From contig JALTID010000007.1 in NCBI GenBank assembly GCA_027004335.1, forward strand, positions 1-5,508: a stretch of DNA of 5,508 nt, in the 5' to 3' direction. The position numbers and the translations under genes were made by a program. Of this stretch, positions 80 to 5,508 are shown in pieces. The notes under the pieces are model-generated. The model did no database searches. It was not told where the DNA came from and worked only from the letters and a program-made list of their open reading frames with translations. The DNA comes from JALTID01 sp027004335 [NCBI: bacterium]. GTDB lineage: Bacteria; JALSQH01. Position 1 is the first letter of the stretch. Each line of letters opens with the position of its first letter.

Positions 80-1903
80 TTATCGAATTTCCTCCATCAA
101 TTCAACCTTCTGTGAGGATGCAATTATGATGATCTTTTTCAACTCAGGTATCTGCTCCAGATCTGCCCAGGAGGGGTGGGTGAATTTACGAGAGGAGGCA
201 TATTTTTGCAATTGGGTAATGGCCTGTTGGCGGAGGTGGATTATATCGGGGGGTGTATGATTATTGGGTAGATGATTATCTACCCCTACAGGGGTGGGTG
301 CACCGCCGTGCGCCCTTACATTCCTTATATATTTCACCTCTATCAAATATTCATATTTTGTCAATCTGGTTACAGGCCAATTTTTTCGGAGATATATATC
401 TGCATAACCACCCGATGCCTCATATTCACCTTCTACAATATACAATGGAGATAATGCCAGATAGGTTTTTAAAAACATCACCACCCCCTCTTCCCTCCAG
501 ATAAAATCCCTGATATTTGCCACCGCTTTGTAGAATTCTTCAAAGAGGAATTCAAAGAGGGGTTTCCACTCACCTTTGTATGCCATGCCTCTAAAAAGAG
601 CTTTTAGATGGTCAATATCTATTCTCAAATCATACGCCTCTTCAACAGCCCTTCTCATATATTCCCAGAGGAGTGTTCTTACACTGTTGTTGGGAATTAT
701 AAACTTGTATTCTCCTGCCTCATAAGCTTCTCCAATGGTGAGTAAACCAAGATAGTAAAGCAGAGACCTGAATTTCTCTTTGTCAATTATCTCCTCAATG
801 GCAAAGGAATCAATCAATGTTCCCGTGGTCTCTTCAACCCTCAAAACTTCCTGGAGAATGTTGAAGTTTCCATTCAATCTGTTGTTCTCAATTACAAGAA
901 AGCGCAACTTGCCATAATCAGTTCTGATATTGGGATCTATGGGATCATGAGGTAATTTATGATCTTGAAGATATTTATTCACTATATATAGCACAATGTC
1001 TGTGTTGTATAATCTCTCTTCAATCTTCTCAGAAAACACATAGCTATTGGCATGTTCCCTGATTGCTTCTTTTACCAGATTCCTGTCTTCTTTTTTTATT
1101 TCTCCTTCACCGATGCAATAGTCCAACAATTCATCAACCTCTTCTTCCGTTAATCCCACCATTTTGTTAAACATTTCCATGGTTGAAATATTATCCCCGA
1201 TATTCATCCCGCTGGTAACATCACTTAAAACCAATGGACTTACCCCTGTCACAAAAAGCCTCTCGATGCTTCTATTTTCTGTACCATTTTTAATCACGGC
1301 GAAAAAGCTGCGCAAGAATCCCCCTGCATGGGTAATCTGTTTGTATTTTCCTCTGCCATGTTCAATTAAGATGTTATTGGCAAAATTGTCGTATTCGTCT
1401 ATGAGAAGATAGTAGGAAATTCCCAGATCTGCAAGGCTCTTAATCAAACCATTTAGCAGATCTCCTGCTTTATCCATGGAGAGAACATTTTCTCTTACTT
1501 CCTGCAGATGTGGGAAATATGTTGTGTATCTGTTAAAAAAACTCTTTATATCAAGACTTACAGAAAAGTTAAAAGACCTCTCTATCTCCTCCAGAGTTCC
1601 ATATACGGGAATTCCTGAAAAATTGAATTTCAGTATGGGAAAAGAATTCTTTAACTCAGTTGGATTCTTCCCGATATATGTATCCACAAACAATTCCTCA
1701 AACTGATCTTTCCTGCGAATATCGTAGTAATGTTCCAGAATAGATATAAACAGCGATTTCCCGAATCTCCCGGGACGGAGGAAGAAGAGATACTTACTCC
1801 CCAACGACTCAATTTTTTCAATAAATTGAGTCTTATCTATAAAATAATAGTTCTGGGTTTTAATCACTTCATAATTAGCAATGCCATAGGGGATCCTCTT
1901 CAT
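80..1903 (-). CDS. AAA-ATPase-like / PDDEXK_9 nuclease-like protein (DUF1703 family)
   Basis: Complete, 607 residues, in the normal to slightly long range for this family. The N-terminus MKRIPYGIANYEVIKTQNYY followed by FIDKT is the standard family opening. The AAA-ATPase-like domain carries Walker A RPGRFGKS (43-50, where the family usually has RPRRFGKS), Walker B YYLLIDEYD (164-172, D169/E170) and the conserved segment VTGVSPLVLSDVTSGMNI (218-235). A helical region (about 250-470) links to a C-terminal PD-(D/E)XK fold: GGYADIYL (D502), YLIEVKY (E522, K524) and AITQLQKY (Q564). All catalytic positions I can identify are present. Residues 530-551 form an unusual Pro/Asn/His-rich insert encoded by palindromic DNA. 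Family function is not established. The genes are often multicopy and horizontally spread, and roles in mobile-element biology or defence have been suggested. The protein is cytoplasmic, with no signal or membrane segment. It is preceded by its own promoter rather than being tightly joined to the upstream operon. Confidence 0.92.
   Translation of the reverse strand: MKRIPYGIANYEVIKTQNYYFIDKTQFIEKIESLGSKYLFFLRPGRFGKSLFISILEHYYDIRRKDQFEELFVDTYIGKNPTELKNSFPILKFNFSGIPVYGTLEEIERSFNFSVSLDIKSFFNRYTTYFPHLQEVRENVLSMDKAGDLLNGLIKSLADLGISYYLLIDEYDNFANNILIEHGRGKYKQITHAGGFLRSFFAVIKNGTENRSIERLFVTGVSPLVLSDVTSGMNIGDNISTMEMFNKMVGLTEEEVDELLDYCIGEGEIKKEDRNLVKEAIREHANSYVFSEKIEERLYNTDIVLYIVNKYLQDHKLPHDPIDPNIRTDYGKLRFLVIENNRLNGNFNILQEVLRVEETTGTLIDSFAIEEIIDKEKFRSLLYYLGLLTIGEAYEAGEYKFIIPNNSVRTLLWEYMRRAVEEAYDLRIDIDHLKALFRGMAYKGEWKPLFEFLFEEFYKAVANIRDFIWREEGVVMFLKTYLALSPLYIVEGEYEASGGYADIYLRKNWPVTRLTKYEYLIEVKYIRNVRAHGGAPTPVGVDNHLPNNHTPPDIIHLRQQAITQLQKYASSRKFTHPSWADLEQIPELKKIIIIASSQKVELMEEIR
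251..280. repeat. 15-bp imperfect tandem duplication
   Basis: Bases 251-265 (GGGTGTATGATTATT) and 266-280 (GGGTAGATGATTATC) match at 12 of 15 positions and lie head to tail. In the DUF1703 protein they encode NNHTP (547-551) and DNHLP (542-546). The second copy contains the left arm and loop of the first hairpin of the adjacent palindromic element, so the duplication probably arose from that element. Confidence 0.6.
266..315. repeat. Double-hairpin palindromic element inside the DUF1703 coding sequence
   Basis: Two 20-base inverted repeats share one architecture. The first pairs GGGTAGAT (266-273) with ATCTACCC (278-285) around the loop GATT. The second pairs GGGTGCAC (296-303) with GTGCGCCC (308-315) around the loop CGCC, with one G-T wobble. 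They are 30 bases apart, joined by CTACAGGGGT, in which GGGG (291-294) could also pair with CCCC (283-286). The GGGG/CCCC-plus-TACA style resembles the intergenic palindromic repeats (GTAGGGGC-type) seen scattered through many bacterial genomes, but that identity is from memory. The element is read in frame as residues 530-546 of the nuclease-like protein. Confidence 0.7.
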
Positions 1904-1994: not shown

Positions 1995-2402
1995 CTATCT
2001 CTCCAGCACCATGTACCACTTTACCATCTCTTCTTCTGTCCTTCCCCTTGCCCAGCTATAGGTCATTGCCAGGACAGATGAAATACTGTATGGTGAGAAG
2101 AACAGGTTCCCATTTTCTGATGCAAGCCGGTGGTATAAATCAATAGCAAAGGCGTTGTTATCCTGGACTATTTTGTCTTGATTAGAACCACTGTATTTTT
2201 CAGTAACCTGTTGGTTTGCATCATTTACTTTCTTATTTGCAGAATGACTTGCTCCACTATTATGCGTGGAATGGCTGCGCTGAGCGTAAAGATAAAGCCC
2301 TACGCCAACCAGAATAAGAATTACTAAAACTGCTATTACTCCAACTAAAAATGGTCTTTGGTAGGTTTGATGATTGTTGTTATTAGTCCATAGGTAATGC
2401 AT
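1995..2402 (-). pseudogene. Membrane-anchored serpin, truncated after about 50 residues of the serpin fold
   Basis: 135 codons. Residues 1-17 are a short Asn-rich tail, 18-40 a strong transmembrane helix (FLVGVIAVLVILILVGVGLY), and 41-78 a hydrophilic Ser/Asn/His/Gln linker. From residue 79 the sequence is unmistakably the N-terminal part of a serpin: NNAFAIDLYHRLASENGNLF, FFSPYSISSVLAMTY (101-115), then ARGRTEEEM (118-126). After EEEMVK the homology ends and translation stops nine codons later (WYMVLER, TAG). A functional serpin domain is about 370 residues, so the central sheets, the hinge and the reactive-centre loop that traps proteases are all missing. The 91 bases before the next gene are too short to hold them, and I see no continuation in another frame or in 1-79. 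An intact version would be a protease inhibitor displayed outside the cytoplasmic membrane. The ATG overlaps the upstream gene by 20 bases and has no clear ribosome site, so expression would depend on coupling. The fragment might still be translated as a small membrane protein. Confidence 0.85.
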
Positions 2403-2863: not shown

Positions 2864-5508
2864 TTACTCCCCGAACTTTCTGTACCATTTCTCCATCACT
2901 TCTTCTGCAGGCTTATAAGTTACAGAATAATCTTTGTTCAGGGGGGCATAGGAGTAAAAATAACCAAAATCAAGAATGCCGCCAACATAACTCCTCTCAG
3001 CTGCAGCCTGAAAAGCAGCTTCAAAGAGAGCAGCCTGTTCAGCAGGATCATACTTTTTTGATGGATCATCGGGACCAATAAAACCAACTTCTGCACCTGT
3101 GGCAGCACCATCAACAGAGGCATAGGAAAGATGAACAATCACAGGCTTGTGGTATTTGTTATACATAGCATCAACATAAGTGGAAAATTCACTCTCCATG
3201 GCACTTTTAATCTCATCAAATGTGGCATCAGGAGAATCAACCAAATGAGTTCCCATATCAAAGGAGGTTACCACAACACAATCGGCATAACCAGGAAAAT
3301 CGTAGATATCATAGTGAACACCATTTATAATGATTTTTCCATGGTAGACACTTTTTACTTCCTGGATCAGATCTATCATTTTTGCATCAAAGGTGCCTAT
3401 ATATGATTGATCAGTGAAGCCATCAGCAGATGGGAAAACATGGTAAAATGGACCGGGGAGGAGTAGATATTCGGCACCTGTTTTTTCAGCGAGATAGGCG
3501 TTATACATATAGAGTTTCTCTGCAGCTATCAACCATCTCTTCCACCACTCTGGTGTATGAGCCTGCCATAAGAATGCCTGATCAGGATGGTTTTCCATAT
3601 TCATCTGGGGGTAGATCAGCGCTTTTAAACCAAGGGAATGCGCGATCTCAACAGCCTTTTCCAGATCCTCTTTGGGAGTAATGGGATTATCAATTTTAAG
3701 CGGTCTTGTCTCTATCTCCGGTGTCAGTATCTCACCATAAGCCCACACAGAGGTAACTACCACTGTATCACCACCATGATTTTTTATTCTACTGTATGCG
3801 GTTTCAAGCTGATTTAAGAATGATGGATTCCAGTAATCAACTGGATAAAAACCCCTGAGGAAGTTTCTGTTATAATTTACATCCTGCTCCCAGTAAGGTA
3901 CAGCAAAATTGAATGTTTCGTAATCATATTCAGGGGTAACAGTAAAAATTTTACTGTAACAGTGAGTTGTATCTGTTACGCATATTCTGTAACTCTTTGA
4001 ATTTTCAATAACAAAATATTTTGAGGTTACAAGATATGGATCCTGAAACTCCCTCACCAGCGGGATTGTAACTCCTGTGGGAGAACCATTATTTATCTTT
4101 TCAAGGAAAACTGATGCAGTTACCGATGTCCATGAGGGAATGGCAAAGGTTATATCCACCGGATAAGAATTATCAAGATTTGCAGTGGGATCTGCAGGTG
4201 GTGCATATCTCCAGCGTTGAATTACAAGCTCAACATTTTTGTCTGAATCAACAGTAACAGAGTGGATGGTCGATATATTTTCATTCTCCTGCCACTCACA
4301 GAACTCATTTATTGCATGATAAACGAAGAAGTTAAAGGTAGAATTGGGAAAAGTGTAGAACCTTATTCCCCAGCTTCCATCACCAAGGGGAGATAGAGGT
4401 ACTGAGGGACCATTCATATTAAAATAGAGCCTCTCTCCTGAAGGTGTATTAAGGGGAGGGATAACCTTAACTTCAAATAAAAATTTCCCATTATTATCAA
4501 AATGTAACCTGTCATTTACCACCACGCTATCTGTTGCAGGAACTATAAATTCTCTGTAGTAGTTGTGGTAATCTGTGGTTTCAGAGCCGTAGAATTGTCC
4601 CTCTTTTGTATATAGATACCTCACATATGTTCCCTGGTAGAGATCCACATCAGCTTCGTAACCTGAAGAAGTTTTTCTCATAATAATAAATCTTGATGAA
4701 TCCCATGGGGTGAATCCATTGTTGGGAGAAGGTCCATACATGGCACCAAGCTGAAAAATGTTACCCACAAGATAGAGATTGTATGGAGAAGATGAATCAC
4801 CTGTTGCTTTAAAAGTAACATGAACTTTTTTAGCCTTTCTAAGTAAAACCTTTACAAAGTTTTCTCCTGCTGAAAGATCCACAGTTATACCTGAGTAAAA
4901 ATAATCACCTAAGGTTGTAAAAACTGTTACTCTCTCCAGTGCCTGAGGTAAGCCTTTAAGATAAAATCTGCCTTTAAAGTCAGTTGCAAGAAAAACTCCC
5001 CCTACAGCCACCGTGGCATCGGTTATGGGCTGCATACTATCAGCATCGAGCACCACTCCGCTTAGTTCTCCGGAATAGGTAATTTTTGTTTTATCAGCCC
5101 AGTTGGTAACAGTATCATTAACTCCGTTATCTTCAACATTTTTATTAACATACAACACCCTGTAATGGATCTTTATCTTATCGTTAAAAACCTCTCTTTT
5201 ATCCATAAAATCTGACCATGGGTCTGAATCAAGATTGAACCTATCATAGGCGTATCTTATAAACCCACCCTTAGGTAGTGAAACAGTGGCAGAATATAGG
5301 TTATCGGAGAGCCTGTTCATCTTGAATCTATTGATAAATTCCCACTCAAAGAATGGTAGTAACTCAATATACACATCTTCCCCGGAGGTTGTAGAGGGAG
5401 TATGCACAATAAAAGTTACTTTTTTATAATTCATCATCCGCCATCCATTTCCCCCTGTGGAACCAGTATTATTGTCTGAATATCCGCCCGTATTATCAGT
5501 ATTCTCAC
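2864..5508 (-). CDS. Exported multi-modular protein with CBM20-like modules and a GH113-like TIM barrel (N-terminus outside window)
   Basis: Partial. Numbering from the ATG at 5437, 857 residues are visible, but no in-frame stop lies between 5437 and 5508. The upstream codons read NTGGYSDNNTGSTGGNG-like linker, so the real start and a probable signal peptide or lipobox lie off the window. Modules inferred by eye: a CBM20-like beta-sandwich at about 5-115 (VTFIVHTPSTTSGEDVYIEL, ending VNDTVTNW); a carboxypeptidase-regulatory-like domain at 121-200 (SGVVLDADSMQPITDATV, TDFKGRFYLKGLP); two further CBM20-like modules at 204-318 and 319-411; an Ig-like module at 425-515; and a TIM barrel at 525-857. 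The barrel resembles GH113 beta-mannanase-type proteins in its strand order, in KPVIVHLSYASVDGA, in the Q-A-A-L-F-E-A-A-F helix and in the ending KPAEEVMEKWY. Glutamates expected at the ends of strands 4 and 7 appear replaced (LLLPGPF, VHLSYAS), so hydrolase activity is uncertain. The likely role is extracellular glycan binding or processing. First gene of the operon. Confidence 0.8.
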   Translation of the reverse strand, partial: ENTDNTGGYSDNNTGSTGGNGWRMMNYKKVTFIVHTPSTTSGEDVYIELLPFFEWEFINRFKMNRLSDNLYSATVSLPKGGFIRYAYDRFNLDSDPWSDFMDKREVFNDKIKIHYRVLYVNKNVEDNGVNDTVTNWADKTKITYSGELSGVVLDADSMQPITDATVAVGGVFLATDFKGRFYLKGLPQALERVTVFTTLGDYFYSGITVDLSAGENFVKVLLRKAKKVHVTFKATGDSSSPYNLYLVGNIFQLGAMYGPSPNNGFTPWDSSRFIIMRKTSSGYEADVDLYQGTYVRYLYTKEGQFYGSETTDYHNYYREFIVPATDSVVVNDRLHFDNNGKFLFEVKVIPPLNTPSGERLYFNMNGPSVPLSPLGDGSWGIRFYTFPNSTFNFFVYHAINEFCEWQENENISTIHSVTVDSDKNVELVIQRWRYAPPADPTANLDNSYPVDITFAIPSWTSVTASVFLEKINNGSPTGVTIPLVREFQDPYLVTSKYFVIENSKSYRICVTDTTHCYSKIFTVTPEYDYETFNFAVPYWEQDVNYNRNFLRGFYPVDYWNPSFLNQLETAYSRIKNHGGDTVVVTSVWAYGEILTPEIETRPLKIDNPITPKEDLEKAVEIAHSLGLKALIYPQMNMENHPDQAFLWQAHTPEWWKRWLIAAEKLYMYNAYLAEKTGAEYLLLPGPFYHVFPSADGFTDQSYIGTFDAKMIDLIQEVKSVYHGKIIINGVHYDIYDFPGYADCVVVTSFDMGTHLVDSPDATFDEIKSAMESEFSTYVDAMYNKYHKPVIVHLSYASVDGAATGAEVGFIGPDDPSKKYDPAEQAALFEAAFQAAAERSYVGGILDFGYFYSYAPLNKDYSVTYKPAEEVMEKWYRKFGE
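2867..2872 (-). promoter_or_regulatory. Shine-Dalgarno for the 159-residue gene, inside the end of the upstream gene
   Basis: On the minus strand the last two sense codons of the large upstream gene read GGGGAG, followed by TAA, one A and then ATG at 2862. The GGAG core therefore lies four bases before the start codon and inside the upstream coding sequence. This supports the chosen start and suggests translational coupling, with the ribosome terminating on one gene right at the initiation site of the next. Confidence 0.65.

Follow-up and report, generated by a model that had tools for sequence, protein, structure and literature searches.

Introduction

Among the short palindromic repeats of bacteria, two described groups are of interest for the element considered here, a pair of hairpin-forming repeat units that lie inside a PD-(D/E)XK-type gene on a 5508-base stretch of DNA. 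This stretch, called the window below, is C7:1-5508 of the source genome G000, an assembly of 1.50 Mb in 262 contigs that is 80.2% complete. The first group is the GTAG-tagged repetitive extragenic palindromes (REPs). According to PMC3733652 (Di Nocera, De Gregorio and Rocco 2013) these carry GTAG directly before a stem-loop with a stem of 5-13 bp and a loop of 2-20 bases; degenerate tags are reported there too, GTAA not among them. Intragenic GTAG and CGTC repeats are described in the same paper, many of them in replication and repair genes and over half of them as dimers or groups encoding 20-30 residues, and two Xanthomonas recB genes have different REPs at about one site. The GTAG-tagged REPs are hypothesised there to be mobilised by REP-associated tyrosine transposases (RAYTs), an association that is not treated there as obligatory for every genome, and PMC8266576 reports that TnpA-REP processes single-stranded REP in vitro.

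The second group is the Rickettsia palindromic elements (RPEs; Ogata and others), for which PMC2229807 gives a length of 105-146 bp; one enzyme with an RPE insert is described there as still active, with changed affinity. Two shorter ones, RPE-4 and RPE-6, are assigned to the CGTC repeats by PMC3733652.

A sequence-only reading of the window had proposed that a palindromic repeat, similar to those of Rickettsia, was domesticated as an in-frame loop of the protein. Here we examine this locus by comparison with its paralogue, its homologues and other genomes.

Results and Discussion

In our view the segment very likely consists of two short palindromic repeats of GTAG type (perhaps formerly three), arrayed head to tail and inserted in frame into the gene, which encodes 607 residues on the minus strand (80-1903). 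One hairpin, at 266-285, reads GGGTAGAT-GATT-ATCTACCC and has a perfect 8-bp stem and a 4-base loop. The other, at 296-315, reads GGGTGCAC-CGCC-GTGCGCCC and has seven Watson-Crick pairs and one T.G pair on the plus strand, which is C.A on the coding strand. The distance from start to start is 30 bases, and when the 5508 bases were scanned for 8/4 hairpins, allowing up to one transition mismatch, these two alone were returned.

Read along the coding strand, the sequence is TGTAA-(GGGCGCAC ggcg GTGCACCC)-ACCCC-TGTAG-(GGGTAGAT aatc ATCTACCC), that is, each hairpin is preceded by a tag, TGTAG or TGTAA, and the two units stand head to tail. Unit 1 (296-320, minus strand) consists of the tag at 316-320 and the hairpin at 296-315, and unit 2 (266-290, minus strand) of the tag at 286-290 and the hairpin at 266-285. 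Judged by eye and without statistics, 250-265 on the same strand (AATAATCATACACCCC) may be what is left of a third unit, namely its 3' half; it is similar to the corresponding half of the paralogue unit with the stem CGTAT/ATACG. The sequence-only reading had thus described correctly two 8-bp/4-base hairpins with a 30-base period inside a gene, and also their in-frame translation, residues 530-546 being RAHGGAPTPVGVDNHLP.

A comparison is offered by a paralogue in the same genome (C61:1587-3434), the protein of which is 74% identical to that of the window. The corresponding site of the paralogue reads TGTAA-(GGGCGCAC ggcc GTGCGCCC), with TGTAG-(AGGCGTAT aatc ATACGCCT) following 50 bases further along. 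The first units of the two genes are nearly identical (92% over 26 bases), while the second units have tag and loop in common and differ in their stems, which yet stay complementary; all four units are read in one frame, with GTA first. A weak further unit lies directly past the paralogue stop codon (C61:1528-1556, E 0.105) according to R1, a structure model made from nine units of this genome, the window's own included. At the DNA level the two genes share 85-95% identity over residues 450-524; the identity drops to 66% with 41 gapped columns at 525-549, is 85% at 575-599, and ranges from 37% to 85% in the other bins. From these values, gene conversion over residues 450-524, preceding the insert, is possible.

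We now turn to the other copies in this genome. A strict pattern, tried earlier, gave nothing beyond the window; a degenerate one, drawn by eye from the units of the window and the paralogue, has 12 matches (9 distinct places), against 0 for the reversed control. Model R1 gives 19 matches at E<=10. To lessen circularity, a second model, R2, was made from 24 units, all from other genomes, which had been found through R1, so that their selection is only partly independent. At E<=1 it gives 20 matches at 10 distinct places, two each on C7, C61 and C23 and one each on C67, C73, C106 and C162. R2, which had no window units in its making, thus recovers both of them, unit 2 with 22.5 bits (E 0.0017, match 261-290) and unit 1 with 19.9 bits (E 0.0135, match 291-320), the genome-wide E-values being rough, and eight other places. 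All six places outside the two paralogues lie outside long open reading frames (ORFs): no open frame of more than 64 codons spans five of them, and for the sixth, on C162, the only ORF that covers it entirely has 55 aa. The tag is unpaired in both window units, and paired with CTAC in the copies on C106 and C73 and in many units of other genomes. The sequence-only reading had counted on dispersal in the genome and would have been given up if other copies were lacking; they exist, at 10 places with R2.

The host protein matches AAA-ATPase_like (PF09820) with 169.4 bits over residues 5-230 (cut-off 26.1) and PDDEXK_9 (PF08011) with 44.3 bits over residues 475-604 (cut-off 25.5). With both Pfam cut-offs passed and the conserved residues retained, it is, as judged from these matches, a member of the PDDEXK_9 / AAA-ATPase_like family. 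D502 (398-400) and E522-V-K524 (332-340, minus strand), which lie just N-terminal to the insert, are conserved, D502, E522 and K524 being invariant across an alignment of 47 sequences; we take these three to be the PD-(D/E)XK catalytic residues. The protein matched no solved structure, and PADLOC gave no assignment for it.

For the insertion, 83 C-terminal sequences were aligned, namely the window protein, the paralogue and 81 others, drawn from the best 80 of 517 relatives and from further loci. Seven loci repeating the window, paralogue or G001 contigs had been removed first, and loci with no C-terminal match were not entered. Two of the 81 (L009 and L075) end at a contig edge, which leaves 79 to be counted. 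The spacing between K524 and Q564 is 17-30 residues in 78 of these 79, with a median of 22 for all 79 (among the relatives listed), compared to 39 in the window protein and 49 in the paralogue. In L013, the nearest relative covering the region among those listed (its N-terminal part is missing), the spacing is 23 residues, so that the window protein is ca 16 residues longer. The insertion of the segment is on this comparison well supported, and the inserted region would be approximately 251-322 on the minus strand (residues 528-551), borders being approximate. That the stretch between EVK and Q564 is longer than usual had been correctly anticipated; conservation of the loop in distant homologues with non-palindromic codons, named beforehand as contrary evidence, did not occur.

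An AlphaFold2 model calculated with the 47 sequences has a mean predicted local distance difference test (pLDDT) score of 86.9, and falls below 50 only at residues 494-498 and 531-548. The latter is the repeat-encoded segment, located between the strand 517-525, which holds E522-V-K524, and the helix 552-571. The loop is accordingly predicted by the model to be disordered.

Model R1 at E<=0.001 has matches in 26 of 145 genomes including this one, that is, in 25 of 144 others, no two of which belong to one family; as no more than 50 candidates were scored in any genome, the counts are lower bounds. The palindrome GTAGGGGCGCACGGCCGTGCGCCCCTAC is identical in G138 and G004 and is also present on one IMG/VR contig. 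In the 24 other-genome units, 95.1% of the pair cells pair and 40 cells are changed on both sides, compared to 9.5 in shuffles. This covariation is favoured by the selection of the units through a structure model, a bias that is avoided by the pattern GTAGGGGCG-N10-CGCCCCTAC, which leaves the core free. It matched 96 IMG/VR stretches, some sharing a contig. Among 100 free-core matches with distinct flanks, all five core pairs are complementary in 61 and at least four in 93, with 47 different cores; random equal bases would give ca 0.1 fully paired cores instead of the 61 observed. The core pairing indicates that the fixed arms GTAGGGGCG/CGCCCCTAC enclose variable self-complementary cores. A plasmid search with one perfect palindrome (megablast, exact 28-base word) returned no match, and among the papers listed by literature searches none is, by title or abstract, on the arm sequence.

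Copies inside genes are seen elsewhere as well. By a permissive rule, which gives too high a number where DNA is GC-rich, 33 of the 99 distinct sites fall within ORFs of 150 codons or more; this genome contributes five of the 99. Ten of the 33 were compared with Pfam, and in five the element is within a domain match. In L164 (G138) the palindrome is in frame at residues 196-205, within a D12 N6-adenine methyltransferase match at 178-405. In L173, L200, L201 and L206, all from G004, it is within matches to the secretion tail PF18962 that are below the Pfam cut-off. These four tails have the element at one place and in frame, with differing cores (PVGAHSRAPLQ, PVGAHGRAPLQ twice, and PVGAYCNTPLQ), and are in this respect like the window gene and its paralogue, which have differing cores at one fixed site. 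In the remaining five, the element overlaps the end of the Pfam match (L213), lies outside the best Pfam stretches shown (L152, L186 and L178), or is in a protein with no Pfam match (L136). One could tentatively suggest, as a possibility that we consider less likely than not, that the window units belong, as degenerate copies, to a single and very widespread class of palindromes needing no transposase of its own in the genome, with arms GTAGGGGCG/CGCCCCTAC, a changing self-complementary core, in-frame entry into genes (V-G-A-xxxx-P-L) and core exchange at a fixed site.

How do these units compare to the described systems? With the GTAG-tagged REPs, as PMC3733652 presents them, they share the GTAG tag, the 8-bp hairpin with a 4-base loop, complementary stem variants, mostly intergenic copies, and intragenic ones that are in frame and grouped. 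Unit 2, with TGTAG before its stem-loop, conforms to that description, while unit 1 has GTAA; the repeat is also a recurring and mainly intergenic one, six of its 10 places lying outside the paralogues and outside long ORFs. Differences from that description are that the units here are head to tail and few in number, that no Y1 transposase was found, and that in many other-genome units the tag, instead of being unpaired, pairs with a CTAC at the opposite end. Since a RAYT is not obligatory according to PMC3733652 and none was found here, the repeat is filed as REP-type and not as a RAYT-linked REP. In the REPtrons formed by REP and TnpA-REP (RAYT), as described in PMC8266576, a conserved motif ahead of a single-strand hairpin is the type of substrate, which the present units resemble; unlike them, this genome has no PF01797 protein that could be found. 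In tag and hairpin the GTAG-tagged REPs, which comprise 24 families in PMC3733652, fit better than the other classes, the comparison being with the description of the class.

The likeness to Rickettsia noted in the sequence-only reading holds for palindromic repeats translated in frame within conserved genes, and goes no further than resemblance. Compared with the description of the RPEs, units of ca 25-30 bp with a GTAG-type tag differ from elements of 105-146 bp, and membership in the Rickettsia-type elements was rejected on size and tag. That reading contained neither the GTAR tag nor the paralogue, whose site holds other units, nor how widely the repeat class is spread.

The array could have arisen as follows. 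The repeats would have been inserted ahead of the separation of the window gene from its paralogue, into the stretch that joins the catalytic strand to the following helix, and the insert may have been tolerated through forming a flexible loop. Since an RPE-bearing enzyme is still active, with changed affinity (PMC2229807), it is plausible that the loop of the present protein is neutral or only slightly costly. Later turnover of units would comprise loss, decay and exchange of stem sequences, this last step being drawn from the two paralogues and the four G004 tails only. The original spread may have been a REP-type mobilisation of single-strand hairpins, by an enzyme now absent, or encoded in that fifth of the genome which the assembly lacks. 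The copies have the look of relics.

A number of observations weigh against this explanation. The insertion is deduced from homologues, and one homologue, L037 (Aminicenantes, folded once), has 70 residues at the same place with no visible GTAGGGG, which means that the site tolerates other expansions too. Both R1 and R2 have 0 matches in G001, the only same-family genome returned; the window units fit R2 only modestly, the tag of the first reads GTAA, and 10 places in 1.5 Mb is a low copy number. There is further no match to PF01797 (Y1_Tnp) in this 80.2% complete genome, nor in G001, and the family occurs in 18 of the 26 genomes with R1 matches and in 66 of the 119 without (Fisher p 0.27). 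A Y1 transposase as the present mobiliser is hence unsupported: none was found here, and across the 145 genomes the association is not significant. The genome for which the most R1 matches are listed, G138 (47 matches), has no PF01797 either. These data suggest that a Y1 enzyme in the same genome is not required to keep the repeats, and earlier action is possible.

Finally, the hairpin shape by itself is only moderately unlikely, as in 66 of 2000 synonymous-codon shuffles of the gene two hairpins of this kind occur within 40 nt, and a perfect one occurs in 133 of the 2000. The units might then be chance palindromes within an ordinary loop of variable length and with no mobile history, and the family loop does vary, up to the 70-residue case. 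What raises the repeat above chance is the shared TGTAG/TGTAA tag, the 12 genome matches against 0 for the reversed pattern and the recovery by a model from other genomes. With the paralogue units in addition, chance was rejected on sequence evidence, and we regard it as highly improbable. More serious is the option that the two paralogues acquired their repeats independently, at a site that is preferred, and not through a single ancestral insertion with later turnover. It would explain why the stems of the second units differ, and it has parallels in the four G004 proteins with differing cores at one place and in the different REPs near the same site of two Xanthomonas recB genes (PMC3733652). 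However, the first units are 92% identical over 26 bases, in the same frame and codon context, and we consider separate insertions rather doubtful. The array could also be in use, either as RNA hairpins modulating translation or mRNA decay or as a functional loop, that is, a true domestication. Hairpins are indeed kept at the site in both paralogues despite different stem sequences, and both strands fold better than shuffles (z -3.10 for the plus and -2.45 for the minus, coding strand). On the other hand, the hairpin of unit 1 has a mismatch on the coding strand, the model leaves the loop disordered, and 78 of 79 homologues lack it, which makes a use improbable. Of the original proposal, the repeat and the extra loop consequently stand, while the domestication, which would imply a use, is unsupported.

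Some further features of the window are given here. In the host gene, residue 45 is Gly (RPGRFGKS), where the alignment nearly always has Arg (RPRRFGKS). A 135-aa ORF at 1995-2402 (minus strand) matches only the first 51 of 370 serpin family positions and looks like a truncated serpin; near its end, the 27-base stretch 2012-2038 recurs with 85% identity as 2881-2907, in the end part of the gene after the next one. A large open-ended ORF at 2864-5506 (minus strand) matches glycoside hydrolase family 113 and, below threshold, CBM_20.

Conclusions

The locus shows clearly how a short palindromic repeat has come to form part of a protein, and the paralogue provides a natural comparison of two arrays at one site. 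With a class that has the same arms and dozens of self-complementary cores in many families, one can ask in what way such palindromes spread, and what keeps the two arms of the core matched when no transposase is obvious.
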